Assembly: GCA_947568835.1 (NCBI GenBank)
Contig: OX387603.1
Span: forward strand, 25,196,651 to 25,260,650
DNA: 64,000 nucleotides
Source: Protonemura montana
Taxonomy: Eukaryota; Arthropoda; Insecta; Plecoptera; Nemouridae
Direction: 5' to 3'
Both the position numbers and the translations under genes were made by a program. Under the pieces are notes generated by a model. That model worked only from the letters and a program-made list of their open reading frames with translations, was not told the origin of the DNA and made no database searches. Shown here piece by piece: positions 9,401-63,154 of this stretch. Each line of letters begins with the position of its first letter. Positions within the stretch are counted from its first letter, which is position 1.

Positions 9401-12400
9401 CATAATCTAGTTCAACGGTCCCTTGGATGTTGCCGCCTCCCCGTGCCTCGAAACACCGGCGATAGAATGCATGTGTGTCAGGTGGTGTGGCGAGCTGGAC
9501 AAGTGCCGGTGCTGCGATCAGCCACGGCCAGGCCGACACCGCGGGTTGCCCCGGTTACCAAGATGCGCTAACAGCTGCATGAGCGGTGACGTCATCTTGG
9601 TGTGACGTCATGAGATCCCTGTGCGACGGGTCAGAGGTCAACTCGACTGGACCGCGCATGTCAATTGGCGAAACGAGCGAAGCACGCAGCGCTCTGAAAT
9701 TATGTTACCATTGAGTTGACAGTTTTTGTCTGGGTCCCAGCGCTAATGTTTAACCTCCTCGCAGAAATACGGACAGATCTAGTTCTGTATCGACGACAGT
9801 GGTAGTTGCTACTAGATGGTGGTTGCTTACATTGGTAGTCTTTTGAGAGTTAAGAAATAGTATTTTATTATTTCTCGCTTCTACTCACATTTTTTACTGG
9901 ATTACACTCAACAAATCTTCATTGCTGCTAACGATTGATTTATTGAGGTATGCTAATCTCAATTATTGATGTATATATTGATCGATATTTTGAATCGTAA
10001 TTATTTAATAACTTAGAGGTTTGCTAAAAAGGACGGTTGCAAACACCATCTGGTGGGACATAACATTACCACTTGTTGCCGGCTCGTTTGCTCAGCAGAA
10101 AGTTAAACACCAGCGCTGTTTCTCTGACAGATTATCAACACAACAATCCCTTGGAAAGCAAAAGCTTCAAGAACGAGCGGTATCCCAGCCATAGAACCAA
10201 GCCTGTAAATCGCCCTCTCTTTTCAGGTCGGCGACGCGCTGTTCGTGGAGCTGCCGCGCGTGCGCCTGGACGGCGGCGCGCGTGCCTTCCGGCGCCACTG
10301 GGCCTACGACGCCGACCAACCGGCGCCACTGCTCGAGCAGGACGAGGACGACGCCGACGCCGACGTCGATGACTCGTCGCTAAGGTGCGACGCCGTCGGG
10401 GTAGAAGCGCCGCGCCATCTATTAGGTAAGTGTCGTAAGCTCGGAGTTCTCAGAGGGATTTTATTTACGTTTTTTTTTAAATATTTCCGACACCATGTTA
10501 TGGCTTAGGAAGATCTTTTCTTTACGGTTGAAGCAGAAAAACTGTATCGGCCAGAAGCCTGGTGCGCTGCGAAAACTAGTTGTTGTTAAGCGTAACTTGG
10601 ACGGTAGCGCCATCTAGTAGCTAGCTCGGAACTAGCTTTAGTATTTGTTCTCCCTAACAGAGTGCGCTGCAATGCAAGTTCAGAAAGACCATTTGCCTGG
10701 GTTTGAGTCCCCGCCCGGGCTCGATCCGAGACCATTGTTACTCCGTTAATAGATGGGTGCGGATTTTTTATTTATTTTTTAATTAAAAATTACAAAGGTT
10801 GATAATTTCACCAACAAACAAACGACTATTCATGGCCGATTCTCGCTTAATTTACTTTCCTGACGACATGTCCACGCCGACCACCAGCATCCGTCACCCA
10901 TTTAACGCTTCGTTAAAGCAATTACGTCGTAATGCGCGCGCTTGTGCAATAAGCCCTTGGCTGTTACCGGTCTTGCGCGACAACTGATGGCGATTGTCTC
11001 GAGTAATCGATGTCAATCGCCCCTTGACAGGCACTGCCTAGTGGAAAACCGCGGACAAGTTGTTTACGCGTAAGAGGTCCCGCGGTATTGCCGCTCAACT
11101 TCGCAAGACTAGCGCAACAATACTGAACCAATATCTACAACTACATCTCAATCGATATCGGCTACTTTTGACAATTTTCGCAATGGAGCGAATGCCGAGC
11201 GAGAACCACGAAGCGAATGTCCCCTGTTATGGAATGTCCAGCACAGAGATGACGCCGAGTGTCCGCTCCTTTGTGGGACAAGCGTCAGTCGAAGCCTCCC
11301 GAGTCCAGACGGATCTCTTCCCGACATCGCGCGATGACGCAAAACCGACGGACGGCGTCGATGATGCAACGACTTCCGGCGACCAACTTAAATGTCACGT
11401 CGATGTAAACATACCGATGCTCTTAACAATGTTGTTATATTTATTATGTTAATAATAGAGTGCGTAATACTTTAATATGGCAGCCATTCAAGAAACTCAA
11501 GAAAGCAAATTTTGAAAGCAAGGACCCAGCGAACAGCCGAGTCCAAATGTATCATCGAGTTTAGAATATTGACTCCAATATTAACTTCTTCTAAATGCCA
11601 AACTCAAAGCTTGTAATCCCTGTAGTCATTAATCAGGCTACGGAGCAAGTCTCAAGCAGTGTCGTCACTCCAGCGCCTTCTCGACATCTCGACATCTCAA
11701 GCAGGAAACAGAGCGGGCCGTGATGGAATAGATCCGGTGGGCGGCGTTCGGCCCAGCGCCCTCTAAACGGCGGAAATATTGCATCAGCGGTTCCCGAGCG
11801 CCGTGCACCATCTAGTATCCCAGAGGCCGTGCCCAGAGCGAACGCGCGGACCCTCGCAGCGGCCTCCTAGATCGTGCTGCCGCTAAGTTATTGCGGGCGA
11901 GTGTCTCGGCGGTCGTGACTGCGATGAGCCCGTTGCCATTGTTCTCTCTAGATGGTCTCCAGGCAGCGCCCGATGACGCGATGCCTCGACGACCACACCG
12001 CCGCGCAGGAAACGGCAGCTTCCTCTTTGCGTCGACGCGGTCGTTCGGCTCAGTGTTGACTTTGCCTCTCGTCGACAAACATCGTCTCTCTGTGTCCTCT
12101 TCTTCGTGTGTTCATCCCTGGACGGCGACCTCCTAGTCTATCGGGACGGCGTCGATGACGTCTCCCGTTGCCAGCAGAGGCGTCGCCGCGTGACGTGCAC
12201 TGTCATGGCGCAGCGTCGCGTCTGGCATTCGCTGTTGAGGCGCGATAAACGAGCGTCGACGTCGCCGACGACGCCGACACCGACGTCGTGTCTGCGCGTC
12301 GCCGGTGGGCATTGTGAGTGTCAACGGCGTCCTCTTTCGGTGAAGCTTCACAGCCGATCTGTTTGTGTGCGCAGAGATCTTGACGTTTTGGTGGTATACG

Positions 12401-15400
12401 TTTGCAATGGGGCCAGAAATGCTCACTAAATAGTCACATTTTGGTCCAAGTGGAAGGTCTCTATAGCAAAAAACGGCATCCGAAGGATGGTTCAACTCTG
12501 TTTTGGCGAATTCCTCCCGCAAACCGCGTTTCTAAAAATTTTTTGAACCAACGTTAACTGGGTAGTTTCCAGAAGACAGTGACGGCTTTAAACCCGGATT
12601 AAATTTTCGATTTTTCCTCGTGCATCGCTTTACGAAGGGGTTTTCCAACGCGCCGTGAGTGTCCCACTATTTCTGACAAACGGCACGCAAGCACGGCACC
12701 CTCTGGTGATAACGGACAGCCGTGACACACTGCGGTTTCCTCGGCGGGCGCCGCAGTAAACAACGCCTTATCGCCGCACGGACAAATAGCTCAGACGTCA
12801 AACCTAGGGCCGGTCCTAGCCTAGCCTAAGAGGGAACCTAGGGTGACCAAAGGCGGCTGCACCCAGCTAGCGATGAGAGCGATATTCTGTGATGTTGGTT
12901 ACCCCGACGGTGGCCGATGTTGTAACTCGTTCGCTCGGCGGAAGTCGGAAACTTGAACGGTTGAGTGTTGACATTGTCGCGAAACAATCGAATTGCCTCA
13001 CGGCAAGCCGCGTTCCGTTGCGCAAGCGTACACACAAAGACACGTCGTTATCATCTCTGTGGCTGTGCTTACCAGAGCCGGATTAATCTGGGTGACGGAT
13101 TCAGCGTTGTTTGCCCTCGCCGTAAATACGACCCGATCATCTGAATGATGATGATGATAGTTGAAAAGTGGAGTTACCATCTTGAAGGGAATTGAAGCTG
13201 TTATCTCTCACAGATTGCTCGCATTTAAGACTGTTTTACGCTCAAATAATCTTCATTGATGTTAACCTCAATTCGACTGATAAACATGTATCGCTCATTC
13301 AATGATTGAATTGTAGAGTTGTTAAAAGGGCGACCGTACGCGCCATCGGTTGGCAGCTGCCATTACCACGTGTAACTTAGAACCTTTACCGCTCAGACTG
13401 TTTGACTAAACCTTGTCTTCGGAAAGAACGTTAAACCAGTAGGCTCAGGGCCAGCTCCGGGTTTCCCCTAGTTCCTTCTAGTCTAGGTTAGTCATCATCC
13501 ATCTGGAGCCACAGGGTCCGTTGTCAAAACAATGCGTCGCTAGAGTTCATCCAAAACTATCAGTCAATGACAATGTCTGAGTCAATGGCATTGCCCTTTT
13601 CGGAGCTGGTCGATCGTCCCTACTGGCAGGCCGTGTTTCGACGACGCACAGCTTTGACTTTGAACGACGCACTCCTCTGGAAATTCGGTCTTCACAAATT
13701 GCCGCTGTCAAGTACGATCAAGGAGTTGGGCACATCCATGATCCACGCTATATGGTGGGACAGTTCGTTATTGCCAAACCATGCGACGAGACAATGCCAA
13801 TCCCACGTAATTTTTGAATATTTTTGGCGATAGCCCTTCTGGAAAGAGAAACTAAACCACGAGACCTCTATGTGACCAATATTGACCACCGTCCCTCACG
13901 TCAAGGTCTCTGCGCCAATTTTTCCCATCCCCCTTTACAAGAGACATTTCTTGAGATCTCCATGGCAACTTGACGTCTTTCCGCACAGCGCCGGCGCGCG
14001 AGGTTAGTTTTCGCCGCACGCTCGAAGCCGATTGGCCGTTGACGCACGACGCCGGCGACGCATACGCGACAAACGACCGCCTCGGCCCACCACCGGGCCC
14101 TGGTAAGCATCGCCACGTGGACAATATCGCTTCCCGCGCTCTCTTTTACTGTCATAGGCTTCTTGAGCCATCCCTGGGCCCCGCTATCGCATAATGTCTT
14201 GCTTTGCCGGGCCCTTATGCTTCATCTGGTTAACCTCCCGTCCACTTCTGCGATTCCGCCTCACCATGCCAAGTCCCCTTCTAGAACCATCAAGTTAACA
14301 TTACCGACCACACAGCTGCTTTGCAACATTAACCCATAAGACCAATAGAGAATTGGCAACTACTAGACCGGAAACGCGTTGATCCAGTCGGCCATTTTAA
14401 ATGCACTGATAGTAAAAATGCTACAACTGTAATAGCTGCCTGAAATAAAACACAGTGACAGTGCAAATAGCCTCCTTCGGCATTTGAGGAAAAAAGACAA
14501 ATATTTTGGTAATGGGGCCCAATGAAATAAGCTGTACATATAAATGGTTTTCCTCTAGATCTAAAGCTAAAAATTCAACGACTCTGCTCTGAAGGTGAAT
14601 CCAGGCAGTTAAGGTTTGTATGTTACGTCGCTCGCCACACACTATCAGGTTGCAGTGGTGTGGACCAAGGAGGCCGCGTGCATGCAGGCAGCTTAGAGTG
14701 GGCCGTGAGAACGGAAGCCAGCTCCCACGGTCCTCGTAAAACAAAGGCCCGGCAATCGCAATCGCTCATCGCGCCTCCTAGATCTCTTACTCCACGTTCC
14801 ACCACAGCCTTCTCGTCGCGCCGTGCGCCATGTTGATCATGTGGAACTCAGACGACTGATTATCAAAGCTCGCCGAACGACGCCCCTTCGAAAGCATCGA
14901 CATCTTTGCGACTTTCATCGGGCCGTGACCACGCCATGAAGATGACATCTCATCAAAATCATCCCACCAGTTGCAATTATGCAGTTTACCGACTAATGGA
15001 TGCAATTTATGTATCCTGCACCTTGCAATGCAATTGCCTACCAGCCGTCTCAACGTTTCCCCTACCGCTTCGCCTGGCCGTGCCTCGCAACGACAAGAAT
15101 GAACCGCTCCCGACGGAGTTGCCCATCCAATCACGGTATCCCGGAATGGAAATGGGCTGCTTAATTTTAATTGCCGCTCAGAAGACAAGGTTATCTCCAT
15201 GGAACGAGACTCACGTAGCCATAGCAACGGCTGCGTAGCAACGTATCGTCGTCGCCACACAAATCCAAGCTGCAAACAGAGACGTGTCTGTCGGAGCCGC
15301 CGCTAAACCCGCCGTTAAACCGGTGTCAATACGCCTTAAAGCGTCGCCATGGAAACAAACAGACACGGCTCGTCGGATGCACTTTCTGGGTGCAGCTGTT

Positions 15401-18400
15401 GTTGACGTTCGAGACACGTGAGCGCGCACCTCCAGGTATCCATGACACCGCCACGGCTTCCTCGAACGTGTGCCGATGTTACCCCTCCGCTCCCCGCGCA
15501 CGGCCCCTTAGATGCGTGGAGACAGCTGATCGCCCGCCGAGCGTCGAGCAGGCCGTGACGCTCCGCGCCGCCCAACTCTGACTCAGTCGGTGTCGAACCT
15601 CGGACCGGGAAACCCACGATTGTGTGTCTGCGTGTGAATCCACCTGACCGTGCGCGTTGACAGCGCGTATCGTGCGTGCAGTGATCGAAAGCAGCAACAA
15701 GTTATCTACACACAGTGCGTCGGGGAAATGAATTGCGAATTGTCGACAGTTCTAAGCCTCCTTGGGACGTGTCACGTTCCCGTCTCAATCTGGCCGTGCT
15801 AGCCGAGCGTGCCGCATACACGGCCAACGAGATGTCAGCCGCTCGCTAACTAGTTGACAGGTGGATTCCGACTTCCGTGTGCAGTGATCGTCGCTCGTTC
15901 GACAGCACTCCAGAGCCCCGTGGATATCCGGGCAGTGACCAGTTACAGTGTAGTGCCCGTCAGTGCCTTGCAAATCGCCGATGGCCGGCCCCATGGACAA
16001 CAGCACAGCGACGCCGACGTCCACGACGAGAAGAACAAGCCGCGGCTTCCACTCGTGTCTCCGGGGCGCCACCAGCCCTGGCGACCTGGACTCCGACGAT
16101 ACCGGTGAGCCGACAGGGCCGTGATAGGTTCCGAGACCGACAGGGTTCGAACTCGGCATGGGGGCGTCAAGGCCAGTAGGATCGCAATGCAATCTGACGG
16201 CGAGTCGCCACTGCGCCGACGCCGTTGTTAATTGGGGCACGCGGCGACCCGTGACGCGCGATAACCCGCTTTTGTCACGCGACAGGCGACACCAAGAGGC
16301 CGTTCCCTTTGTCCACCGCCGAGTGCATGTAACGCGACACTTAGATACACGAGAAGCGACATGCACTTGTTTCATCCAGTGCACTGCACACGTCTGGCTC
16401 ACATTCTTGCTTTCATTCGATTCCAAGCATGCCATGTCTTCATTCAAGCGTGCCGTGTCAATTGAGTCGAGCGGCCGTGGCTTTGGGACAAGTGCCAAGT
16501 GGCCACACGGCTTGTTCGATCGCATTACGAATGTGATGAAGTCTCTGTGCAGGGCCTGCCATGAGTTTGTGCTCTGGCTGGCCGAGTTCGCGAAGGTCGA
16601 ACACGGCCTGGTGGCTGTATAGAGACAATAACAAACAACAGAGCAATTAGCAGCAATCGCCGACTAGTCGATGATCCAGCGCGCCTTGGCCGACCGACTT
16701 GCTAGTTGCCTGTCTCGTTCTCTCGTCGGCACCTTGCCACACATCTCACTGCACACCTCATTATGGCACCGCAAAGATGGCTGGTGACTGGCAGGAAAAC
16801 TGAACTAGGGCGCATTTTGTGCCCCGAAACTGACTTTTAGGATAAAACTGGGGTTGTGGCCAAAAAAAGCAAGGGGTAATGGTCATCAAAACCCCAAAAA
16901 TGAGTAAAAGTCGAAAAATCGACTAAGTGTGCCGTGTTTGTAGTGCACTGCAGCTAGCCGTTGCCATGCAACGGGTGATCGATTGCCGACACGCGACTCG
17001 GCTAGTCGGTGCACGCGTCGAGGGCGCCGTGGACAGTTTCCAGAGGGCCAACGCGCGTTCCCGTCCAGCGCGCAAAGAAAGCCGAAAGCCGAAAGCTGAA
17101 AGCGGCGACGGCAGTCCAGGAGGCCGCTGCGGCGCTAATCGCATGCAATCAAACAGCACACTGGTCACGGCCGGCTGGACAACGCCGTGACAAGTGGCAC
17201 AAAAACACTTGGCTTCTGCCGCGAAGACTCAACCCCGGAGGCAAGATCAGAGACGGTAGCAGGCCAAGCAAAGGTTCCAAGGGTCTTCTGAGTGCCCTGT
17301 AGGAGTACTGAAAAACAGAACCCAATGTTCCTTGCACGGGAGTTTTAACTCACCAACATATGCGTTGTTTTTCAAGCGCACATGCGCATCGCATGAGTCA
17401 TCCATGACATTTCTACGCATCATCCTCGTCTTCCATCCTTGTCCGCCCTCCGTCTGACACGAGCACATTCTCTCCCTGTTTCACTCACTGCCAGGCGGAT
17501 ATCGCTCCAGCCGCGCATCGAGGGTGCAGCGACGTCGTCAGCTGTTCTTGCTGATAAAAATAGATAACGGCTCGAGGAAGCCATTCTGCACACGGCCCCC
17601 TCTGAAGTCGGCTCAAATCACCTCCAGCAGGCGGTGCTTGCCGGCACGGTCTTCGTGGTTACCGGTAGTCACGACACCTTAGAACTCTAACTTATCGGCT
17701 AGCCTACGGCCTTCTTGACTCGCGGCAAACAAAGCGCTGATAATCATTATCGGGGAATGGCCGACTGGCTTGCTTATACCTTATTTTAGTAAAAAAACAA
17801 TCGCCATTTGGCTGCCTGGCAATCGACAGCCGTAAAACAAAACACTGTGGCTACGCTGATAGCCGACTCATAATACACTAACAAATCATCTCCGTTCCTT
17901 GCGTCGCTTGTCTCGGTCAAAAAAACAACACTGTCGACAGTCGGAATAAATCTCCATATTCGCCTCCGGGCACGGTGCGTTGTCATTCGGCCCTCATATC
18001 TTATCTGTCTCTAGGGGGCCGTGGAGACACTCAAGCGGAGACAGTTGAATGCGAGTTAATTTTAACGACCTCAACTCACAATGACACTTACGATTGGTAA
18101 ACAAATGAGTGTGGTCACCGCTGGCTAGCTCGGTGGCCAATATGCCGTGACGCGTCGCCAGTGAAATCTCGCCACGCACTTTGAGTGCCGTGCGTCGCGC
18201 TGTGCGTGGGGCGGCCCTGCGGCGAGCGTTTGGCGGCGAGCCCCGTGGAAACCTCTCGTCCGGCCGCCTTGTTTGGACATCGGCGCCCACGGTCCCATGG
18301 CGATCTCGCCGCGTTCTCACGTCGCGAACAGACCGGTCTTAGCACGCCACCACCGCCGCCTGGACCCAGCGATCCAAGGGGAATTTCCTCTGCACTGGTT

Positions 18401-21400
18401 GGGCACTGGTTGTTTGTAGTGGCTGCTTTCACGGTCCCTTCGGCTACCAACGCAGGTATTCTAGCTGCCAATTGTCCTGCTAAGACGAGGAAGTGCCGAT
18501 CGTTGGCAACCAGCATGCCCCATGAGGCCGTGGGACAAACGAACGGCACCGTCGCTTGTTGCGGACGCGCGCGTCGCGCACTTGTTTTGCTGGTTACGTG
18601 TTGGCTACTCGGTAGTCTATAGTAACCGAGCGTTAATGCCAGCACGTAAACAAGTCGATTATCGCGTAACTTCGGGAGAACAACGCGTATTAACGCGAGC
18701 AGTTAGTTGTTCGTTGTCTTGGTAACCAGCCCGTGCAATGTTGTTGGTGCATACAACGGGACCGGGCCTTGTTGCATGTCAATGTCTGCTTGCGGTTCCC
18801 ATGGAGCCGATTGCGTTGCCCGTAGCAACGCCGTGGTAGCAACCATGCTGGCGGGAAGTGGGTGACTGAAACACGGCCCTCTTGGTGGCCCTGGATTTGG
18901 CCCGAAGAACAATGCAATGCTGTGCGGCAACACTTTGCTGACCTAATCGCCTCGTGCTGTTGTCGTTGGCATGGAAACCGCGGACGCGCGTTGGCATGCA
19001 CTGAGTGCTTGGCTTTTTGGAGCGAAAGGACCCAAGTGACAAAGTTCAAATTCAAATTTGGTCCAAATTTGGGGGAGAAAACCTAATCGTGACCGCATGC
19101 CATATGCCGGTAGCAGCTGCTAGGCGAGAGCTCAAAGAAGCCGGGTACAGGGGAAGGGTTGGCCGCGCCGCAAATAGACGTCGGCGTCGTGGTGCCTGCC
19201 GAGAGGGTCGGGAATAGAGAAACAGGGTGTAAAAACAAGTCCAACAATCTGAGTTGTTTTCATTTTTATAGCCGTTATTGCAAATGCCGTCGGTCAGTGC
19301 ACACGGATTGCGGAACATGCGAAGGCGGAACAAGTGCAACACGGCTACGCGGCAGCCGACGAGTTATGCAGATTACTGTGTATCGAGTGAGCGGTGAAAA
19401 CAACGCGAGAAAGCAAATAATAATCGACAAACGAGGAAACTCGAGCGCTCGGCACGGCAAATTGGAGCATAAAATCGCCGCGTGCAGAGCCCTTATCAAA
19501 TGTTTATCAACACGAGTGAAGCGTTGCTCGGCTGGCAATCGCGGTATCTATCAGGCCGCGTCGCGGTCTGGCTGCGTGCATGAAGAGTGTATGCAGATGG
19601 ACGGCCCTCTGGATGCATGGCCTTCTTCCCTTGGGCCTTGGCCTACGTCTGCTTGAATCTTCACTCAACGGCAGACAAAGAAGCGACGACACGAAGGATC
19701 CAGTCTGCCGTCGACGAAACCGCGATCGCCGTCGTCCGGCTGTCTCAATGCAGGTGCCACACAATGCCGGCGATGCACGCACGCTATGCAAACGCACGCA
19801 GATTTTCTTTGCAGTCGTGCAAAATTCGGCAGCTGCGATCCGCACGTCGATTTTAACCTAAAAGAGCGTGCTATTAGTGCAAATTCTGGAACAAAACGAG
19901 CAGCACTTTTCTTGCAAACGCTGCACTATCGCCATGGCAACAAGCACCTGCTTAAAGTCGACCGAGCCTGCAAGGCACCCTTGAGTCTTCTTTGCGGCAT
20001 CCTTTGTAACACACTGCACTAGGCTCTAGAAGGCGCGCGGTCGCTAATGGCCTGTCACTTGTCTGTCATGTCGATCGGTGATGTCGCGGCGATGTCGCGT
20101 CGACCTCTCGTTGACAGGTTAGTAGTTAGGTGTGGGGGGGGGGGGATCCAGGTGGCCGGTTGTGTGTTGGTCTTGCAATGGGAGAAGACAAGTGAAAACT
20201 GAAAGACGCGTCCGTCTCGCGGGACTCGGTTGTTGTTTCGAATTCTTCTGTTGCGTCATGGCGACATGGTCGTCATCACGGTCCCTTGTCGCATCTGCCG
20301 CGATCTGTCACCTCGCCGCCAAGAAAGTGACAGCTCTGTGTGCGTCCCACTGCCAGCTGGAGTCAGCGAGCAGAGTATAGAGCAAATATCGTACAATTAT
20401 TTAACACATTTTGGAAATTTGATCCTCGTTTGCGATCCTCTGTTTGGCTGGTCACCCACCCAAGTAGCGATGTTGCTTAACCGCTGTGATGTGCTAAGCG
20501 GGCATCAAGGTGGAACATGCGCTGACACGCGTTCTATTCCCAGCGCCGACGGCGTGTGTTTTTTTCGTTTCGTTCTCTTTTTTTACCGCCGATCGCGTAA
20601 CCCACGGGCGTCGCCTAGCACCGAGCGACAGGCGTCGTGCTTATATTTAGCGTCGGGCCGCCCGCCTCTTCTCATTCACGGCTTACTCGACGCACGGCCG
20701 ACAGAGAGGTGCGGTGGCACATGTTTTTACTCCATCCGGATACTGCCAGTCAGCGCCATCGTAGCACACACCGAGATGCACCGGTGTCATATGAGTGCTT
20801 CCCATCGGCATGGCAACGGATCGACAACGAGGCAGCATCGATGAAAAGAATGCCGATTCGGCGTCCAGCTTGCAGTGGGTGACATCGGCGAGGGCGACAT
20901 TCGGCCTTCCTGTTCCGCCGCCTCTTCCTTCCGGCCTTCCGGGCTTTGATCGCCCGAAATCACGGCGACCAAGAGACGGCCTAGAGCTAGTCAGCTGTTT
21001 CCAGCGGACTCCGAGTGACGTCACCACGATCTTCGCGCGATCTACAGATTGGCCAACACACGCTTTGTCTTAGCGCCCGTTGGGTCGCACGGTGTTGCGC
21101 CACTCTTCCTTTGCATGCGTTTCGCGGCGCAAGCGACCGAAAGTGCCGCGACGTCGTCGCTTTCTCGCGCGGGAAATCACTTCCTTTTCGACACTGCCGG
21201 GCAATTAGCACTCATTAGCACACGCCAAGCACGGCCCGTTCGACCCCCGGCCGCATGTGAGCTTCGGTGGTTTCCATAAACAAAACAACCGAAATGCGGG
21301 TACTTTCGCTCGGCCCGTTCGGCGCTCGGTGATTCACGGCGCATGGTACAAACTGCCCCGTGGGTCAGAGGAATTTCGAGGAGCCCCCGCTGACGTCACA

Positions 21401-24400
21401 CTGCCCGATGACGCCACCTGGCTTCGGCGCTAATGAGAATTAATCGCGCTGGCCGTGCTTTGATTCAATCACCTGGGCCGCGTCTCGGTTGTGACGTTTC
21501 GCAACATCGGCTAGATCAATTAGCACCGCCTTCTCTATCCATCACAATTATGCGCGACAAATGTGCAGATTGCAGTCGCTTGGCGGTGCGGCGCGGCGCG
21601 CAAGGAATCACGAAGGCCGTGGTTGAAGTGATTGCCGGACATAGTGCATCAATCTTAACGCGCTGCAGGTCACTCCATAATTTATCGCTTCGCCTCATGG
21701 TGTCGCTGCGTATCGACATATTTTATAGTCACAGTAACGCCCGATCAAGTCCCACTCAAACGCGTCTTCTGAGAACATAACATATCACAGTCCCCTGAAC
21801 CTATTTCCTGATACCAAACTTTGCCTCGATTTTTTTTCAATTCGAAAAGTATGGTTCTTGCTTCAGCCGTGCTAAATCCTGTTGTTTTTCTCTTTGCAGG
21901 TAAGTTGAAGTCAATGTCGTTGCCGAGATCTGCAGAACTGGCGGACATGCGCGAACACGAACACGAAGTCGACGCCGACCCCGACACAGGTAACCCACGC
22001 GGCGTCCCAAGCCAGAGCAACGCCCCTCGTATAGGGAGGCGATTCACTCGCTCTGATCGGCCGAGAAATGAGACGAGTGATAACTAACACCGAAGGGACA
22101 GACGATCAACGGTTCGGCACGGCAGCCTAGATCTCCCGTGGCTTCTTGCGTGCCGTGCGCCTGTTGAATTATGCATCGAATAGGCCGTGCCGTGCCCAGC
22201 CGCAAGTCTCGTTGCCAGGCAATATAACACTGCCACTAGTGTTGTGTTGTTAAAAGTGTAATGCATATGTGCCGTGCCGGATTCGCTCCCGCCGAAGGCT
22301 ACGTCGCTCACTGTTATCTGGTTTCGCCGATCAGCATGAGAGTGATCGTGTAGGCCGGGGTGGTCGCTCGGACACAGGGAGTTTCTTTGTTTTTCGCATG
22401 CCTCGGATATGGGAACGCTGCTTTGGATGGAGAAGTCTGGGTTCGATCGCGGCTGAAGGGGGCGGACCACTTAATAATCCGTCATTCAGCTGGCGAAATT
22501 GGTCTTTTTTGGTCCACATTCTTTAGCAGCCAAAATCATCTTTAATCATTCCCATTCTGCGTAAACTACACGTGATTGTGATTCACATGTACTGCTTCTA
22601 TCTTCTAAGAAAGAAGTCCATTCGCAGGTTTCCAAACTTCAGGTAAAACGCCTCGTTGACCTTCGCTGGCGCCGAAGTCGCTGGCTGTCATGGGGCAAAA
22701 GTGTTGAATGCACGTGTACATGAAACGCTAAGGGTATTGGTAATGTTTACGGACTGCTAGCGCTACCTTGTAGCAGATCTGGCAAGCTTAACTCAGTAGT
22801 TGCCGCATTGGCTGGCAGGTGGCGTTGCTTGTCTAGTCACGGCGCGGTAGATGTTAATGTTGACAGCGTTTGAATCGCACGTTATTCGCGGGTTTTTATT
22901 CGACAGTTCACTATATTTGGAGTACATTTTCTGATGATTCTTACATTTATGAAAAACAGATTCGTATCCTTTTAAAATATGCCTTGTGCAAAAAATTAAA
23001 ACAGATTTGAGCGATTTAACGGGCAACCTATATGTATACCTGAAGTGCAAAGTTACGCGGGTTTCTTTTATCTGAATCAAAGCAAGATCAAGGTTTCCAA
23101 ATTTCGTTTGAAGGCAGTGGATGCTAGAAATTGAACCATACACATAACCCTAACTACGCCCGAACCGGCACGAATCAAGCGGTTACTAAACCTCACCTCG
23201 TCTCGTCAATCGGCTGCTTCTTTGGAGTCGGAACTCCTTCACGGCAGTTCCCACCGAGCTTTGTTTGGAGAACATTGGTCGACCGGAAGTGGGACAGAGG
23301 AGGCCGACGTGCGTCTCGAAGAGCGACGTGTCGTGACAATCGCTTCGAGGCTGTCGCCTGAGCCTGACCCTTCCGGCCTCAACGCCCATCCCCCCCCCCC
23401 CCCCCCCCCACCCCTCCCTTGCCAGCCACGCAAGTCGTCGAATTGGGTGTCAACGCCTCGCGATGTGCGGCAGGTGTTCGAAGACGCCGACATTGCAACG
23501 TGAACATATGCATTTCTTGACTGAAATAATAAAGAAAGAAGTATGTTTTTAAGAGACGTCCTATTCTCTCCCTCTGGTCAGAATAGACGAAAATGTTCAA
23601 TACATTTGTGAGAGAAATACCTCGCCCAGAAGTTCCCGTTGCCAGGTGACGACCACGAAACAAGTGCTATGCGTGGCCGATACACAAAAGGGGCCGCTAT
23701 GGGAAGGTGCAACAGGTGGTGACGAGGCTCCACGAAGACAGCAGACAAAAGCAAGGGCTGCGTTTTCATCACTGCCAGGTTGCGTCGCACGCCAGACAGA
23801 TCCGTAGCAAAGGCAAGCCTATCCGTAGTCATGGTAACGCGATAAGGTGATCTGCGGTTGTCATGGAGACTGGTGCAGGTGGGGACGACCACCAGATCGA
23901 GACACCTCGGTGTCGGCTTACCAATTTAACGTCGCTGGAAAATCACTACAACGCAAGATCAGCGTTTGCACTTATTGTTCGCGAAACGCCTCCCCCCCCA
24001 GTGTTACGCACTCGACGACGCCGACAATGAGGAAAGCTTTAGGTTTACCTGACCTCGGGTCGCGCCCGGCCACACCGACCCCACCCACGCGTGCAACGGC
24101 ACACGGCCACCTCGCAATCGCATGCAAATCTGTTCGCGCGATCTGACGGGCGGTGGCCCAGTTTCGCGCGCCAGATCTCGGCCGATCGAGTATACCTGCG
24201 AGTCACGGCGACTCGTAATTACTAACGGCAATCCATTATCTCCGAGACAACAAATGGGCGAAAGTATCGAGCGGCCCGTGTGCGCGGCATTCGGCAGACA
24301 TTCGTTCCAGCGATCTGTGTGCAGTGTGAGAAAACCCGCTAGTCACCGATGCCAACGCGCACGGCCACTTGGATGATTTGATCTGCATGAATCAATCGGG

Positions 24401-27309
24401 AGCCTTCCAAATTATCTACCTGCGAATTACTGCATCACTGCACACTGAGTGCACTCTTCGAGAAAGAGAAATAGCAAATATTTACCATTCGTTGGATAAA
24501 ACAATTGCTGTCACTCGGATTCCACCCACTCTGTTGGGTCGTGAAGCTGTTATGTAACCATAGCGCTTTTGGCGTAATGGTCGATTGACCAAAGTTAGTC
24601 ATTTCTGTCGATAAATTCCGTTGTGGAGCAAAAAAGTCAATATTTATACAAAATTCTCGCTGAAAGATCTGGGAAATGCTTCAAGCTTCAATCTAACCAC
24701 AACGGTTTAGTGCATTGGTTTTCACGAGAACACCGAAGTTAAGCAACATCGGGCGTAAGTCAGTACTTGGATGGGTGGTCATTCATATGGCCAAGTTGGA
24801 TGGGTTGCACTTGCAGACATTGCTTTTCAACCTCTCGTCGGCATGGATTTGTGAAGGAATCCTGTTATTCGAGTTGTACCATCCTCCGGAAGCGACGTTA
24901 GCCGATGGTCTCCTTTGGTGCTCGTCGACAAGAGTAGGCTACGTGCCGGCACCGGGTCTTCCCTCCAAGGCATGGCATAGAGATGCCTGGGAGTCAACAC
25001 GGACTCCAAATAGTGGTCGCCGTTGACACCGATAGGAGGATGTCCGGGCCAACGGCTCACCGGAATTCACGAGGCCGTGTCCGAGCACCGGCCACTGTCA
25101 ACGACTAGCCTTGCTAACTGACAGGTGACAGCCGATCGGACGAGATAACAGACGGACCTTGATGAGTAGCCGCCGGGTCTCGAACTCAGCACGACGACGC
25201 CTAAGACGCACTAGACGATCGCACGTGACAAAATTCCGTGGCCGGCAACGTGACAGCGTCAGCCCCGTCGATCCGCTTATCGGGCTTCGATTGTCGCTAG
25301 TAGCTTCCGCCGTTCCGCGCGCCGCCTTCCTTCCTGGACGCCGTGGAAGACGGTAGCCATTCTTTGTCCGAATCGCATCGACATCGCCGAGCTCGGCATC
25401 GACTATCGGTGGAATCCACTCGGCCGTGTGGTGCTCGAGGAGGGAGGGTGGCGGGGGTGGGGGGAACCCGTCGAGTCACTCAGCCACGGCTAGTGTGCCG
25501 CGCGCTCTCGCCTAGATCGGTCGCCTGCCCGGTCCCTAGGATTACCATCAAGCTATTGTGTATGTTTTGTTCGTGTCTCGGCCACTTGGATTACCGGCCT
25601 GTGTGTGATAAGCAAGTCGGTGATAAGCCTAATCGGCGGCGACAGTGTGTGTAGTGACGCACCGATGCGCTCAGAGTGACAAACGCCCTCGCCATGCTCG
25701 AGGTGGAAGGCGAGACGCCACCGCGGCGGCGCAGCACGTTCTACGTGCCTCTGGCCTCGGCGCCGAACCCTGCGCAAGCGCCGCCGAGCGTCGTCCGCGC
25801 CACGACACGCGTGTTGCCCGAGGTGCTTCGCACGCCGACGCCGACGCCCGTCGCGGCGTCAACGGCCACCCCTGGGACGGCTTCGCCAGCGACTCGCACG
25901 CTGCAGTTTTCCATCTCGCTCAAGCGTAGTGCGTCGCGACGCCTGCCACTAGACGAGGCCGTCGACGTTGTGACGACGCCCGTAGAACGCGAGTTGCCTC
26001 AAGCCGTGCACGCCGATGTCGACGACGACGCCGCCGTGCACTCTGGTAAACAAACGCCCCCGTCCCTAGCGACGTGCTGCGGAAGTATGCATGGAATCAC
26101 TCTGTACCTAGCCGTCGGACCGAACGCGGCCCAGGCGACGGCAACGTCGAACAAACAAACACGCGGACGTCGTGGGGGCCGTTGCAGCGAAACAGCTGCC
26201 CGGAGGGCCGACGCTTAGCGGCCGTTGCCGAGCAACCGTGGCCGTTGCTATAGCGACGAACCCGCGGCCGCATTCCTTTGCCGCGAATCACGCGGCAATC
26301 GCCGTCGTCATGGCACCAGACTCGCTGGCATAGCATCTTGACTTGGCTAGCTGAATGGTAACCACGGGTACGGCAGAGGCCTCCTAAGCGGCGTTCCCAT
26401 CGGGTTCCCGTTCTCGAGCGTTTCTCTGGGCAAAGACGGCGACGACGACGTTGATGCAGCTCGTCCGTGGCTTGCCTCGAAGGCCTGTCCCTCCGTGCGA
26501 CGTTGCCAACTCGTCGTGTTTACCTGGCGTGCGTGGAGCTTCCACCTGGCCTTTCCTTGCATTGCATTCCCCGGCCCCATGGGTGTACGACCCGACCACA
26601 GCCTGCTGGTGACTGGTGGGGACTTGCCTCTGCGCAGGTGCACCGGTCATCCCACCCCCCATCGTACTAGAGTTTGAATTTTGATTTGATTTTTTAAATC
26701 GGTTAGCGTCTTCTGGGAAGCCCCCGTGGCACCCTTAGCTTCGACGCCTCCTGTTTTTCTCAGGATTGAAGACCAAACCGTTGCCTTCTGGATGTTGCGG
26801 GCGTCCTGTTCGATCCTCGCCGGGGTGACCTAGAGCCTCGGAAGGACAACTTAGGCAAGATAACCTTCGGCCCTTTGGCACGGCACACTCCTGGGCGGGT
26901 CTGACCAAGAGGCGTTTCCACATGTTTGCACTGAATTACGTACTTGAATCAGACACGTCGCAATTTCAAGCATTGACCAATGCTTTGCCTTGCGTCATGG
27001 CGACTCCAACGACGGCGATGTGAGCTTGTTGTGGTGATCAACCATGGGTTCTGCCTGGCGAGGATCCATCGCTGCTATCCGTGTTCGCCGGTTTGTCAAC
27101 CTGGACAATGGCTCCATTGTGGATTGACGTTGTGGGATTGGATTTTGTGAAACAGCCTTGCTTATCAACCTCTCAACATCGTGGATTCGTGGAGGAATCC
27201 TGTTCACGTTGTACCGACTTTCGGAAGGGACGTTAAGCTCCTTTAGTCCTCTTCGTAGGTTACGTTCCGGGATTGGGTTTCTTCTGCCTTCTAGGCTAGG
27301 TTAGGTTCG

Positions 27310-27357
<48 letters not shown>

Positions 27358-30300
27358 ACATCAACATCATCATCATCATCATTCATCGTTATCATAGTCA
27401 TCGTCTTCATCGATCACCTTGGCAACGACGCCATTTTAAACCGATTTTTGAAGTCCTGTTTGCAAAACAGTGCTGTAAAACACCTCAAATCAATTCTATC
27501 CTCCTTTCTTCTGAGATTGCGCGCGTCACCGATGACTAATTCGCAGCGGAGTCATCTCGAGCTCTCTGCAGAAATCTTACTTTCAATTCTCCGCGACTGT
27601 TGGCCCAGTGGCACCTATATGCTAGCAACCAACGCGTACACGGTAACCATAGCAACGGCGACCGATTCGTTCTTTGTGCCTCGTCTCCCGGGGCGACGGC
27701 AGGTGCTGGCGTCACGAGAGATCCAACCCGCCGTGCCGCGCTGGGCCGAGAGCAAATCGCATGTCGGTAATTGCGGGCGCAATTGTCTCTACCACGCGGA
27801 TTGGTCGACGAATCAGCACCGTCCTTCGGAAGGGATCAACCTAGGCGGTGGCCGATCCTTGGTGTTGATGGTGCTGCGTGTCGGTACCGGGTGCACCATC
27901 TAGGCACGGCTAGCTTCAACAGCCTGTCATTCACCAACAGGCAATAAACCAGGGACAAGGCGAACACAGTGTATCAAAGTTTCTATGCCAGGCAATGGCG
28001 GAGTCTCGGCCTCGTGGGAACCTGACAAACCCGACCATTGTCCCACGTCTTCGGACCAAGCCGACCCATGACAGCGGAATTGTTTCCATAGCGACGCACT
28101 GGTCGCCGTTGCCAGGCGCCCAACGGCTGTCGCGTCAGTTTCTCTTGGTGATAATCACTAAATCCCCGATTTAATTAGCAGCTCTAGATTACAGCCGGAA
28201 GCTGTGGTCCAAATATTGCTGCAGTTTTTAGCATAGACTTGGGATTTTTTTGGAGTAAATTATAGTTTAGATTTAAAAATAGCCTGACTCAGCTGCGTTT
28301 GTTTACATTTACATGGGGTTTTGTATAAAACATAAGCACAGTGATAAAATACTGGAATAACATCGAATGAAAGTTCTCAAAGTGACACTATCGCTCAATC
28401 TTACCAACTTTGACAACGCCGGGTCAGTTTGTTTTCAAAGCGGGTGCTGATGGATCCCCGCAAGGCAAATCAGATTCAGGAAGGTGAAGGCATTTGTTAC
28501 CCCAACACCTCCTATCAAGGCTCGGACACAAGATATGGGACATGGAGACTGGGTCCACGTTAGGCGCGATAGAACAGGATTGGTTCTTGATACGCTGCAC
28601 GCACAGCCATGGTGTAGTTCATGGCCCTCGACATGAGGACATGTGGGCAGGGTCCACATGAGACAGGGTGCGATAGATTCTTGACACGCTCTAACCTCCA
28701 GTCAAGGCTGTGACGTCGATGGTGCACCTAGGTTTGATATTCCCCATGCTTGACAATGGCCTCTAATTTCGGGTCTTGGATGTGAACACTGGCCCATCCC
28801 CAACTGGCCGATTATCACCGCTAGTGCATTGTCGCCAGACGTTTGCCGCTCATTGCCGGTAATCTCACACCAACCGCCGTCCCCTTTTGACGCCTAGCTA
28901 ACGATTCGGTAACCCCACCGTAACGCTGGCAACGCGGTCAGCTGTCCACGAGGTGCGCCTGCGTGCGACGAGCAGGACACGAACACCGCGGACAGGATGC
29001 GCCCAATTCCCCGCTGATCCGTGGGGCCGAGATCGGTCAGACCTGGGTTCGAGACCGGGTCCTAGCCACGCACACTACTTGCCACCGTCGATCACGACGA
29101 CGGCGATCACGATGCGGTCATCTTCCTGGGAGACTCTCAGTCAACAAGGCGGTGCTTGACCCTTGCCTTGAGATTCCTGACTTGATTCGAACATTCCCAC
29201 GTGTTTGATGACGTCACCGTCTTGACATCGCGGTTCCCATGGATTCGGGCCACGTGGTCGGCGTCCTCATGGCGACGCGACACATTTAATCACGGCCTCC
29301 CGGAGGGCAGCAAAAACCCGGCATGTGTGGCTCGGCGGGGTCGCTGAACACTGCACACTTCAAGCGGCCGATAGGAACGGCCAAATGTGAAAAAATCATT
29401 TAGTTGATTTTGAACAACTGAATTGCTTTGCTAGATGTGCAAGTAAACAATAGATTGTGCCTCATAGAGCTGACTGCCAATTCCATCGCGGCTTGCTTGA
29501 AACACGAAATCTTGCATCGCTTATACGCTTGGTGGATGCCGTGTGGATGCCGTAGTCGATGATGGTCGATATGCGTGTTCTGGATGCTCGTATCCTCCCC
29601 GCCGTGACCAAGTCGGACGAGCAGGACGCCGCGCATTCAAGCGTACCGTGATTCCCACATATAGCTTGCGTTCCTGTCGCCGGTGAGGCAATGTGGACGT
29701 GCAATTGCTGAATTCGCTGCATTTCACTGCTACTGACGTTGCAGAACAGCCGAATGTGGTGCAACCAGTCGAAGTGCTGACCGTGCCTGTCAAATCAACA
29801 AACACCTGCCGCGGGGCAGAGCGTACTTGATGGTACATGCCACAGAGGCCGTGGAAAGATGGCCCGGGGCGGAGAGTTTTTGATACTTTCGTTGCTAATT
29901 GCCAGGCGGCGCTAACGACGTTATTAACGCTTTGTTAAAGAATACCAAACGTCACATGCTCACGCCAGCTTTGATTTTCTCTCAAGTTTCAAGTAAAAGT
30001 TATTGGTTTCAAACTTTCAGCCCACAGATGAAAGACGCGGGGTTTGCCTGAGAGTTGAGATGGACAGCTTTTGGTCTTGGGTCCAACAAAAGGATTTACG
30101 AACAGTACGTCAGTTTGCAGAACAAGCGTCGATCGCCACTCTCGTTGACCGCACACCGAATCCATGCGTCATGTGTCAAACGTTGGCCAGCGCTCGACAG
30201 CGCCGTGGTCTCAAATCGTGATGTCCTACATAACAACTTCAACGGTCCAGTTCCTTTCTTAGCCGCTGAGCTCTGCAAGGCGCGCACAGCGACAGCTTTT

Positions 30301-33300
30301 GTGACAGAGGTCGCCCTGTCAATGTCACGGCCAGCCAGAGCAGAGAGCCAGAGTCCGCACCAAAACGGCGGTGTTTCGAATACAATTGTCTTGTTGTTTC
30401 ACAATTTGCGTTCAATGTACTTTTTCTAGTGCACTTCAAAATATTCAATGCGGTAATCTAATAACCGTGTGGTGTGATAAGCTTTGTGATGAGTAACCAC
30501 CTTTCCAATTCAGCTGGCTAATCTAATTTAAACAAGCTGGCAAAATATCAATCACGCTGCATTGCAGTTCCAGATCATATCTTTTACTCTTATCTATTTT
30601 TGTTCACTGCCAGTAAGCGTCCAACAAAACACCTGAATCGAATTCGAAGATGGATTCTATGACCAATTTTGTCCATTGCTAGTCCAAGTGGCCGAGATTG
30701 CCTAGGCAGGGTCGATGGACCGCAACGGCCGATTTGTCTCGGTTATTTACATCGAATCTGACACCAAACAGCTGGTGGGTTTTCCGATGGCCGTTGCCGC
30801 CGACTGTCGTGAACAAAGTTACATTGTTGTCACATCATTATCTACGATTGTTGCTCAATATTTGTGCCCTATTTTCTGACATCGGGGGGTCTACGTCGGA
30901 CAAAATCGCCTCAAGGAGGTACTTGGTAGTCGGCCACGGCTTCGTGGAAAGCGCACTGCGCGTCCGGCCGATCAAGTTTCTCAAGAGAGCCGGCTTTCTC
31001 TCACGCTGTCTTCTATCTTCGGGGCAATTGACGCGTTTTCTGCGACGCGCGTTGTCAGTCTCTCGTCTCGGCGACATCGAGTGCGTTGCAGTCCGTAACT
31101 ACTCGTACCCAAGGAGCCGTGCTAGCTGCGTCAGCACGCCAATTGTTCCAAGACGTCAACGTGGGTACGTGTCCTGCCAGGACACGAGATGTCCTGGAGG
31201 CCTCCACTTGACCACCATGACAACGTGACGAGTTGTTTACTTGGTTGCCATGTTACTAACAGCTCCCCTCTTGTTGCTATGTTACAGATACATCGTACGA
31301 GAAGGCGTGTCGAAGGGGCAGCGCCCCCGCGACCCCTGTGCTGGGTGCGCGGGCACTCGAGCTCACGCCCTCGCGGATCGCGGTTAGTACATCTCGCAAA
31401 TCATTGGGTTGTCACAATTCGATCACTTGTTGTGGGCTCTGCATGGGCCGTGGGGTGCAGGTGTTGACTATCTTGGGGACTGAAAACAGCTGCACAGGAA
31501 GTTGTGGGGGGGGGGGGGGCGGGGGTCGCCGACCTCTATACTCCATTTCACCTTGAAAGAAGGCAAGTTTGCAGGCATTGTCAGCCAGGGAGCAGGGGTT
31601 TATTAACTCCCCAAGTGTTTTGAAAATTCTTAGCATATTTCAAGCAAGCTCTTACATGCAAACCCTATTGCTTTCTAAAGCACAGTACTTATTTTTATTG
31701 AAGTGTAGCCAGATGTTGTAGATGCTAAGGGATGCAATAAATAAATTGATAATTGTAAATAATTATTCATTATAAAGACATTCCACTATGCCCCAGCATA
31801 GCCACTTTTGGTTTGGTTTGTCATTGATCAAGGCTAAAAAAATCATAAGTTGCTTACCACATTTTTGAAAAGTTGGAATCCCATCATGCAAACTGTATCT
31901 ACAATTCATGAAACAGATGAAATGAATGTTGGAAATTGCAAGGAGATTGTAAGCAGAGTGTCAACTTGTTGCTGCGATCAAAGCTTTGAAGAAAATCGGC
32001 TGTGTTGTTTTGCCGTGAGGAGTGTTGCAGGGTGGCACCCCTGGCCACTTGGCGGTAGCAATACTGAAAGACTTGTCTGTCGTGTTTCAGAACTTCTTCT
32101 CGAAGCGGTCGTTCCGTTCCAACCCGCTCAAGCGCACCAAGAGCGTCACGAAGCTAGAGCGGAAGCGTGTTGACGGGTGAGTCCATATTATTTAGGAATT
32201 GTTGAACCATCAACTTTCTAAACGGGGAAAGATTGCGAAAGCATTCAAATTGCAACGTAGAAAGAAATATTTGTGCGTTGATCACAGATTAGCTAAACAC
32301 AGACATACCTTTCTTCTGGGGAACAACTACGTAAAAGAAGTTGCTGCTAGTAGTTCCGAATTCTGCCATTGGAGTGTGTTAGCATCGACATTGTAATTGA
32401 GAGAGAAAGGAGGTGAGGGGAACGGAACGCTGTCAAACTTTGCGGAGCGCTGGCAACCCAGAGTGGGATATCTGTGTAAGCTTTTTTATTATGAACACTA
32501 CTACTGTCTCAAAAATTGATGCCCAAACGGGAACTCAAACTCCGATCTCCACCTATCGCTGGTGTTGCTCTAACCTATTGAGCTACTTGGACACATGCTT
32601 TTTGAGACGGTTTTAGTGGTTTTAGTGTATTTTGATGAGAATGACAGATCTCCAAGGAGTAGAACCAAGAGGCTGTGAATACTCACAGTCACTCTGATTC
32701 TAGTGACACTATACCACGTCACAACCATTCAATCTCGAGTAACTCCAGATTGACTTTGGTATCGTTATATTTAAAATCAATTTTTGAGCGTTTGCTATTT
32801 AAATAAGATTTCAAATATCTGTGTAAGCTGTCTACTTGAATGCTAAATATAGGTTGCTTATCTTTAGGTCAACCAATCGTTGTTAACGCTTGCCTTCTTT
32901 TAGCAGTGTTGTGGTTCCCCCTCGGCTGCGTACCTCACGTTCCCACGAATCGCTGCTGGCCGGCCAAGGCCCAGGCGCCATGCAAACTCTAGACCTTGGA
33001 ACGTCGGGCGTTGATATCAAGCCACTGCACCCCTCGGTGCTCGGGCGTGAGCACTGCTTCCAGGTCACCCTCTCCGCCGGCCCACCACGATACTTCTCTT
33101 GCCGCTCTGCCGACGAGCGTGACAAATGGGTGCACAGGTGAGTGAAACATAACCTAACTTTGCCTTGGTAGCTGATTTAGGGGAATCTCCCGGTGCGGAA
33201 CAGATTGGAAGCCAAAATTGCCCTGGTCACATGGTTATATTAAGTAGTCACTCCAAACGGGATGATTATGTCACTTTTACGTGATATGTGGAATGATTTA

Positions 33301-36300
33301 ATCGCTTTTGTTGAAGAAAGAAAGCTTGATAATTGGCCATTTCACTGCCTGTGCCCTTGATTTCCAAATCCCTTGGTGCCCTGGGTGCCCTTGATTAAAA
33401 AAGTCTGGAAAATATTATAGCTGAGAAATGATCCTACAACTTTACTTCTTTAGTTGCTGTAGGGGAGAAACAAAATCGACTATAGAAATGTATAATATTA
33501 ATGGGTTGTACTTTCTACTCTTGTGAATAAACATTTGATTTGAACATTTGAGCCAACCTAACCACATTTTCAGCCTACGAAAGTCGGTGCAGCCCGACCA
33601 AGAGCACGTCCGCCGCGTGGACAACTCGCTGAAGCTGTGGATCCTTGAGGCGAAGGGAGTGGCCAACAAGAAGCGATATTTCTGCGAGCTGTGCCTCGAC
33701 AAGACGCTCTACGCCCGTACATCATCCAAGCAGAAGACAGAGATGTGCTTCTGGGGCGAGCACTTCGACTTTCACAACCTGCCCGCAGTCAACTCCATCA
33801 ACATCAACCTCTACCGCGAGCCAGAGCGCAAGAAGAAGCGGGACAAGAACACACTTATAGGTCAGTTGCTCAGTGATAAACAAATCAGGGCTTTTTAAAG
33901 TTTTCATGAACTGAATGGTAATGTTAAACTTTGGCTTTGATTGTAATCTAGTTAAAATATTCAAGAGATGTGACTCAAAATTATATTTAAGTAAGTTTAA
34001 AATTATATTATGAAGTGCCCTTTACTAATCTACCTTAAACAACTGTAGCTACCTATGCACTAGTCGTGCAGCCTGCTTTTGTTCTAAAGCTATCAAGTTT
34101 TCCCATGCTCATCAAACTAAACGGATTCTTGCTTGCCTGGTCGGCACTTGCAGGCAGCGTCTGCATTCCCGTGCACGACGTGACGTGCCGAAACCTGACC
34201 GAAAAGTGGTACCCGGTGCTCTTGGACAAGGGCGCAGCCAAGGACGGCCCCGCACTCCGCGTAAAGTGCCGCTTCCAGTCCGTCGACATTCTGCCCGTGC
34301 AGGTCTACCATGACTTCCTCACAGTGAGTACCAACTGTAGCAGATTGATAAGTTGCCAAGTCTCGAACTCGGCGTTTCGTTTGGGCTGCTGTCAGCCAAT
34401 AACCATTGAAGGTCTCCATCGATCGGGGTCTAGGATTTGGAATTGTAGTAAGGTTCGAATGTATCATATCTATTCAGCTGTTCGGATAACTCGAGTCCTT
34501 GTGCAGGAACTTCAAAACAAACCCTCCAAGTGCAAATCTGTGGGTTTAGTATCAATCGAGGAAAAACCAGGGCTTCACTAGTTGTCCCTTGCTTGTGTTG
34601 CCATACCATAGACATTTTTGTAACAAAAATAGGTACAATCCATTAGCTGAAACTAGTTATTTATAGTAATAGTATTACTAGTAATAATTTCGTGACTAAT
34701 TCTAGATGAAAGAATAGTTATGCGTATGCTGAGGATCACGCTGACATCACTGTCCTGGTGTTTTTAGTACCTGAAGACTGAGTACCAGCCGCTTTGCGAG
34801 GCTCTAGAGCCGGTGATCGGTGTCAAGGCCAAGGAGGACATCGCCACGTCGTTGGTGCTCGTGATGCAGCGCGAAGGAATGGCCAAGCAATTCCTGGCCG
34901 ACCTCGTCATGATGGACATAGCACGAAACGGTGAGTTAAATGATGTTGGCTGCGTCCCACGATTGAATGCAAGTTGCCGTTTGGCAGGAAGTTGCCGTTC
35001 AAACAAGATGTAGATTTAAAGACGGGCATTTGAATGTGTCCACAGCCGGCTCCATTGCTTGGCTTCGTGAAACCATACGACTGTTGTTGAAACATATAAT
35101 TCTATTATATTATATGCGAGGTCAATGGGATTGAAGTTGTTTACGAAAATAACAGCTGCACTCATTTAACTTGTCAGGTATTGGTTTGACTATATACCAG
35201 CTTGGTTGGAGGAATTCCAGTATACCGGTTCCACCAGTCGTTGAAATTGACATTATGCCGGATGCCTTCTTGATCCTGTTTGCTTTTCCTGGGTGGGTTT
35301 CAAATTCTCATTACTGTCATTCATTGCCATTAATATTCCATTAAGTCATTGGCAGCGCCTAAAGGTTCAACACCACAAATAACCTAACCAATTGTGTTGT
35401 TATCAACTCGAATACCCTCTCAAAAATATGTTTTATTTTGGGGAATAGGGAAATCAAGCTCATGATAATAAAATACTCTGCCCACTGCAAGCATTTGCAA
35501 TCTAACAAGAAGTAAACCTAAACCAACCGATGTTTTTTCGTCTACAGAGGATGGACGACTTGCTTTCCGCGGCAACTCGCTGGCCACAAAGGCGACGGAG
35601 GCGTTCCTCAAGCTGGCCGGGGAACGCTACCTGCACGAGACGTTGTCGGACGCTGTGGCTGCACTGCTAGACCCGGCACTGGACTGCGAGGTCGACCCGC
35701 TGAAGGCGGCCAGCCCCGCCGCTCTCGCCAGGCAACAGCAGAATCTGCGTTCTGCCGTCGAAGCTGTGTGGGCTCGAGTGCTGTCATCGCACACATCTTT
35801 CCCTATGTGAGTTGGAAACTTGAAACCATGGGTATTGGTATCGGTTATTGCTGCAGAACGCACGTGTCAAAGAACTAAGCTAACGATAGGCTACATTATT
35901 ACAGTTATCAGTTGTAGTGGAACCTGATAGCTGTGTTTCGAATTATGGCAAAAATATCGTTGCAATTTAATTGTATATGTGGTATGAATCAACAATTGGG
36001 GCAATCAACCTCATCATTCATCGGAGTTGTGCAGCTGGGAGTTTTTTTTGTACCTCGCTATGTTTTGGCTCCATGAACCACCACCGCGTAAGACCGTCTT
36101 GGAATGTTTGTGGGTTAGCTACAGACCAAAGCGGGAATTTTCCTTTTCTTTTGGTTATTTCAACAACTTGGTAGGCTACTAATGTCATAATGTAAAGTGA
36201 ACCACGACACTTTCAACCCACTTTGTGTATAGAACAGCAGTAATTAAGTGCGGTTATGTGTTTGTTTTCTGACAGTGAGCTGCGCGAGTGCTTTGCACTG

Positions 36301-50064: not shown

Positions 50065-50089
50065 CCAAGTGCAAAAGCAACAACGACGC

Positions 50090-50095
50090 AATAAA
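50090..50095 (+). terminator. SLC7A14 polyadenylation signal
   Basis: AATAAA 26 bases after the stop codon, which would give a very short 3' UTR. A later ATTAAA-like signal (about 50298) is also possible. A (TA)-rich microsatellite follows at 50164-50195. Confidence 0.6.
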
Positions 50096-51820: not shown

Positions 51821-51879
51821 AATTTTCAGGCAGTGGGTTCACTTTGATATTTAGAACGCGGCAAAGTTGAGTCCAAACC

Positions 51880-51960
51880 GCTCGCTCCACTGTTTACACC
51901 TAACTCAAGATGGCGGCTGAGCGTGGTCACGTGACTTGCACGTACATTGGCTCTGTGATT
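51880..51960. promoter_or_regulatory. shared promoter of the AT-hook gene and Rab18
   Basis: The two start codons are 526 bases apart, head-to-head. Within this space lie AAGATGGCGGC (51907-51917), the canonical YY1 word, and the palindrome GTCACGTGAC (51926-51935), an E-box of the USF/MITF type. Both are common in animal housekeeping promoters. No TATA box is apparent. Confidence 0.6.

Positions 51961-59822: not shown

Positions 59823-63154
<3,332 letters not shown>

Follow-up and report, generated by a model that had tools for sequence, protein, structure and literature searches.

The 64,000-nt stretch of Protonemura montana DNA analysed here (hereafter the window) carries a RasGAP gene on its forward strand. 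A 13-exon model spans positions 3177 to 37822, with introns that are all GT-AG and phases that are all consistent. Its translation is stop-free and comprises 829 residues, or 859 when a 90-nt exon within the longest intron is included. The model ends at 37822; the 3′-most exons lie outside it and outside the acceptor and donor comparisons that draw on it. The first 746 residues (776 with the insert) gave Pfam matches to PH_RASGAP, RasGAP, C2 and PH, and an ORF at 40692-40988 matches the DAB2IP C-terminal domain. The PH_RASGAP, C2, RasGAP and DAB2IP C-terminal matches are all above the Pfam cut-off. In addition, the closest solved chain for the product is SynGAP (3bxj, E 5e-41). Given these domains and this chain, the gene is, as judged from its sequence, the raskol/SynGAP orthologue; the name raskol follows an orthology that we assume. 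PH_RASGAP has a single match genome-wide, the one in this gene, and a paralogue was set aside on that ground. The part of the gene considered below is organised as follows (all on the forward strand; a slash marks a splice position):

10227..10425 (+): exon 3, ending in phase 1 with the donor TTAG/GTAAGT (7.4 bits; gene model, donor scoring)
10426..31287 (+): 20,862-nt intron containing the site under study (gene model)
31288..31382 (+): next modelled exon, phase-1 start and phase-0 end, preceded by TTACAG
32091..37822 (+): nine further modelled exons with most of the PH_RASGAP, C2 and RasGAP domains (gene model, Pfam)

Exon 3 ends with CTATTAG (10425), followed by GTAAGT. The site under study lies 55% along the intron, between segments of 11.5 and 9.4 kb, which agrees with the near-midpoint position given in an earlier note on this DNA. 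A nested gene in the intron was considered and rejected: the 10 longest ORFs, out of 52 of at least 100 aa, have no Pfam match at E 0.01. The intron also holds a TCA tandem repeat (27310-27416, ~35 copies, 82% matches). Elsewhere in the window, a 5S rRNA-like sequence (Rfam RF00001, 47.8 bits) lies on the reverse strand within intron 1 of the RasGAP gene (4859-4979). Neighbouring coding matches on the forward strand (45117-61386) correspond to an amino acid permease, a Ras-family GTPase, a proteasome subunit and triosephosphate isomerase. The best solved match of this last gene is 2i9e, which we take to come from a beetle. Together with the Hox sequences described below, it points to an arthropod genome, probably that of an insect.

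A candidate donor-initial exon in the long intron

Read directly, the forward strand runs GTTGTTTTTCTCTTTGCAG and then GTAAGTTGAAG, with the junction at 21899/21900. As the earlier note had described, a strong acceptor abuts GTAAGT, and the following 90 nt are open and end in a donor. The features are:

21872..21876 (+): CTAAA, branch-point candidate by consensus match; its A (21875) precedes the start of the exon by 25 nt
21882..21899 (+): pyrimidine tract and acceptor TTGTTTTTCTCTTTGCAG (9.1 bits)
21900..21905 (+): GTAAGT, candidate ratchet-point donor (read directly; scored)
21900..21989 (+): candidate RS-exon, 90 nt, phase 1 to phase 1, 29 whole codons
21990..21995 (+): RS-exon donor CAG/GTAACC (3.2 bits)

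Scored with generic metazoan weights, not trained on Protonemura montana, the acceptor at 21900 is the strongest of 13 (the maximum of the 12 other modelled acceptors is 7.7 bits). On the same weights, the joint acceptor-donor score of 14.5 is the highest of the 432 AG/GT sites on both strands of the window. The runners-up reach 4.4 on the forward strand (202 sites including the one at 21900) and 7.4 on the reverse strand (230 sites). A score of 14.5 is reached nowhere in 60 sequences of 64 kb generated by a third-order Markov model (one strand scored in each), which argues against a chance juxtaposition with no role in splicing. So does the setting of the site: the intron is long, the site sits close to its midpoint in sense orientation, and an in-phase donor follows at 90 nt. 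The short pattern YYYYYYNCAGGTRAGT, allowed at most 1 mismatch, has 1 match for 0.30 expected and is matched at least once in 29/100 shuffles; by itself, it is weak evidence.

Splicing of exon 3 to 21900 would regenerate the donor TTAG/GTAAGT, with a score of 7.4 bits. At the other end, the exon reads GACACAG (21989), followed by GTAACC. This second donor lacks the G at +5 and outscores 8 of the gene's 13 modelled donors. The nearest other AG before the exon lies 35 nt upstream. In the 13-exon model, the frame is kept whether the 90 nt are included or skipped, with phase 1 at 10425 and phase 1 needed at 31288; here too, the earlier note was right. By the criteria of 30-199 nt, an acceptor of at least 5 bits and a donor of at least 3 bits, this exon is the sole open in-phase cassette on the sense strand of the intron, and the antisense strand has none.

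The 181 nt from 21840 to 22020 match the genome at a single place, their own, which speaks against a repeat origin of the site. Locally, direct repeats are absent, and a single short inverted pair lies away from the site. An alternative first exon starting from an upstream in-frame ATG was also put aside, given that the tract makes a strong acceptor.

Ratchet-like sites across the genome

The genome that served as control, and in which the window lies, is a 258-Mb assembly of 34 contigs. The strict juxtaposed acceptor-donor pattern has 14 matches in it, and 1 when written backwards. With 1 or 3 nt put between the halves, 3 and 3 matches are found, and 2 with a purine tract in place of the pyrimidine tract. 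The word CAGGTAAGT occurs 2019 times (1393 backwards). If half of the bases before CAGGTAAGT are assumed to be pyrimidines, ~3.9 of these words should be preceded by nine pyrimidines, as compared to the 14 strict matches observed (Poisson P 7e-5). A relaxed pattern gives 44 sites against 14 backwards, and 19 when its halves are spaced by 2 nt. The excess of juxtaposed sites is thus clear in direction, and its size is uncertain by a few fold because the spaced and purine patterns occur more often backwards than the strict one does (5 and 5 for the strict spacings, 10 for the purine tract, 24 for the relaxed spacing). By chance alone, some 4 strict sites would be expected among the 14; weighed with the evidence at the site itself, we consider a fortuitous juxtaposition in the RasGAP gene improbable.

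The surroundings of the 44 relaxed-pattern sites were compared with 1686 random positions in the same loci and with the 19 spaced controls. The best donor 25-150 nt downstream has a mean score of 2.88 bits at the 44 sites versus −0.47 at the random positions (Mann-Whitney P 5e-11); the mean for the spaced controls is 0.34 bits (P 0.14). Downstream donors of at least 5 bits are present at 10/44 sites, 1/19 spaced controls and 48/1686 random positions. Those of at least 2 bits concentrate at 50-74 nt downstream of the 44 sites, where there are 14, as compared to 3 to 5 per neighbouring bin (25 to 149 nt) and 0 to 4 elsewhere within 300 nt. At the level of sequence, this pile-up of donors is what RS-exons would be expected to leave. 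A small cluster is also present in the spaced controls, which have 4 donors scoring at least 4 bits 25-49 nt downstream.

Two ratchet-like sites lie 15 kb apart on the same strand of contig C1 (C1:12046260 and C1:12061501, both +; loci L002 and L018). They perhaps represent two steps within one intron. The first has a CAG/GTAAGT donor 118 nt downstream.

One of the 44 sites falls in the Hox cluster, which was located on contig C16 by its homeodomain exons. From their translations, we take the homeodomains to include Abd-B, abd-A, Ubx and Antp. With a fly Ubx N-terminal piece as the query, Ubx exon 1 was placed at C16:3080812-3081069 (−), E 2.5e-14. The ratchet-like site, TTCTTTCTTACAG/GTGAGT at C16:3036267-3036285 (−) (locus L041), is on the sense strand, 50.5% of the way along the 88 kb that separate Ubx exon 1 from the homeodomain hits, and has its own donor 52 nt downstream. 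The probability that one of the 44 sites lands within this span in sense orientation is ~0.007, uncorrected for the choice of homeobox genes. We regard the site as a likely positive control in Ubx. No same-strand excess of the 44 sites is seen near the 99 homeobox matches as a whole: within 100 kb, there are 3 homeobox exons downstream on the same strand versus 1, 3 and 1 in the other classes, and within 250 kb, 4 versus 4, 4 and 2.

Coding character of the candidate 90-nt exon

The frame of the exon has a codon score of 0.14, which lies between the coding windows (mean 0.40, sd 0.25) and the open intron windows (mean −0.29, sd 0.22). Among 87-nt intron windows, 2.4% of the open ones and 0.9% overall attain this value. 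The scores were trained on the other modelled exons of this one gene; the resulting support for coding is only moderate, because the test favours GC-rich sequence and draws on a single gene. Among the 44 ratchet-like candidates, frame 0 or 2 is open in 29 and both are closed in 15. The 90-nt exon has the highest codon score of the 29 and is the only one above zero, the second reaching −0.03. On the other hand, 28 ratchet-like sites have a donor of at least 2 bits, and 9 of these delimit a length divisible by 3, of which 8 are open in frame 0 or 2. An in-frame RS-exon is therefore not unusual in itself.

These figures bear on two other readings. The exon could be an ordinary cassette that begins with GTAAGT by accident, its first six bases not serving as a donor, and that is handled by standard alternative splicing. 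An open, in-phase exon with coding-like codon use and a donor not out of line with the others of the gene is what such a cassette would look like. However, junctions of this kind are enriched genome-wide together with downstream donors, the exons that they delimit are mostly not coding-like, as the closed and low-scoring candidates above indicate, and the regenerated donor outscores the exon's own. We therefore hold an accidental cassette to be improbable.

The other reading is a sub-case of a working ratchet point: a zero-nucleotide site whose RS-exon is cryptic only, with an accidental coding look and no presence in mature mRNA. As described in PMC8605326, flies have more than 500 intronic ratchet points and fewer than 50 expressed RS-exons, and the donor strengths here (7.4 versus 3.2 bits) favour skipping. 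A vertebrate counterpart of the insert, moreover, was not found in the human SYNGAP1 stretch compared. Against this, a rough likelihood that combines frame, openness and codon score favours coding by ~27 to 1, which raises a prior of 0.09 to ~0.73. A purely cryptic exon thus appears rather unlikely, and some inclusion in addition to a working ratchet point is a tentative proposal, which we place somewhat short of an even chance.

The insert would occupy residues 210-239 of the inclusion product. Between its end and the Pfam PH_RASGAP match (266-383) lie 26 residues, and its inclusion shifts the Pfam bits by at most 0.1. Its placement in the PH domain by the earlier note was therefore overstated. 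The first PH strands may sit further upstream than the Pfam match, as in SynGAP, so that the insert could still conceivably fall in a loop if the PH domain is split. The "basic serine segment" of the same note describes approximately the first ten residues; the remaining ones are acidic and His-rich. By eye, homology of the insert to vertebrate SYNGAP1 had been suggested, and it failed shuffling: with a human SYNGAP1 stretch as the target, no counterpart was found (5000 shuffles; P 0.55 with standard gaps, 0.08 with soft gaps). Aligned to that stretch, the skip product scores 83 and the inclusion product 84. A literature search on the insert peptides found no report.

Comparison with known recursive splicing and proposed pathway

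According to PMC8605326, a cryptic exon is necessary at fly ratchet points, and the regenerated donor normally wins, with the exon being skipped. A small set of fly RS-exons is nevertheless expressed, although the ratchet-point donor was stronger in 7/7 reporters. The Drosophila ratchet points of kuz, Bx and Ubx-RP share with the present site a strong acceptor abutting GTAAGT, a long intron and a weaker donor shortly downstream (PMC8605326). Expressed Drosophila RS-exons (Ubx m1/m2, 51 nt; sm, heph, msi) are likewise short and donor-initial, with an exon donor weaker than that of the ratchet point (PMC8605326); the same holds here, where inclusion is putative. In contrast, cryptic fly RS-exons are generally out of frame, poorly conserved and ~50 nt long (PMC8605326), whereas the candidate here is in frame, open and 90 nt long. 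Vertebrate RS-exons resemble it in that exon recognition precedes a competition of the regenerated and exon donors (PMC8605326 citing Sibley 2015). The earlier note had regarded the site as a hybrid of fly and vertebrate forms. This view is overstated, as fly ratchet points have already been described in PMC8605326 as requiring RS-exons; the combination is a known fly mechanism and not a new form.

PMC2773006 describes an enrichment of ratchet-point motifs in the large introns of mosquito, bee, beetle and sea urchin, and the presence of such sites outside Drosophila is therefore not new in itself. Vertebrate large introns have no significant accumulation of the motif in that source, whereas it is in excess in the Protonemura genome. 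Single fly sites tend toward the intron midpoint and have unusually strong acceptors (PMC6110457). Fly recursive segments average 9.1 kb, as compared to 11.5 and 9.4 kb here, and fly sites are prevalent in introns of more than 40 kb (PMC6110457), whereas the present intron is shorter. Among titles and abstract openings, with subscription literature thinly covered, no report of an RS-exon architecture outside flies and vertebrates was seen. The literature search also found no report of recursive splicing in connection with raskol, and for SYNGAP1, passages of one paper concern other non-canonical splice sites.

Overall, both the sequence and the genome-wide statistics lend good support to reading the locus as a recursive splice site accompanied by an RS-exon. 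We propose that a ratchet point of the fly type, coupled to an RS-exon that preserves the frame, works in the 20.9-kb intron of the raskol/SynGAP orthologue, and give this reading a probability of about 0.7. Exon definition would recognise 21900-21989. In a first step, exon 3 would be spliced from 10425 to 21900, with release of the first 11.5 kb and regeneration of TTAG/GTAAGT. In the usual second step, this regenerated donor would be spliced to 31288, and the RS-exon would be removed along with the remaining 9.4 kb. On some occasions, the donor at 21990 would probably be used instead, which would add 30 residues to the linker that precedes the Pfam PH match. Since the regenerated donor is stronger than that of the exon, skipping should dominate; the insert should be absent from most mRNA, and its inclusion should be minor or regulated. 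The coding look of the exon suggests occasional inclusion.

The site is a testable candidate for recursive splicing in a Ras regulator, beyond the classic fly examples, and the genome scan, based on sequence only, finds donors at RS-exon distance downstream of ratchet-like sites. The Antp and Ubx homeodomains share one Hox cluster in this genome, which has at least ten contigs of 12.9 Mb or more and does not look drosophilid. A broader proposal, which we rate at close to but under even odds, is that RS-exon-based recursive splicing, including a ratchet point near the middle of the Ubx intron, operates genome-wide here, so that the exon-definition mechanism known from flies predates Drosophila, and that the raskol RS-exon may switch a coding insert of 30 residues. 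If true, recursive splicing by exon definition would extend to a genome that does not look drosophilid, with one of its transient exons apparently coding.
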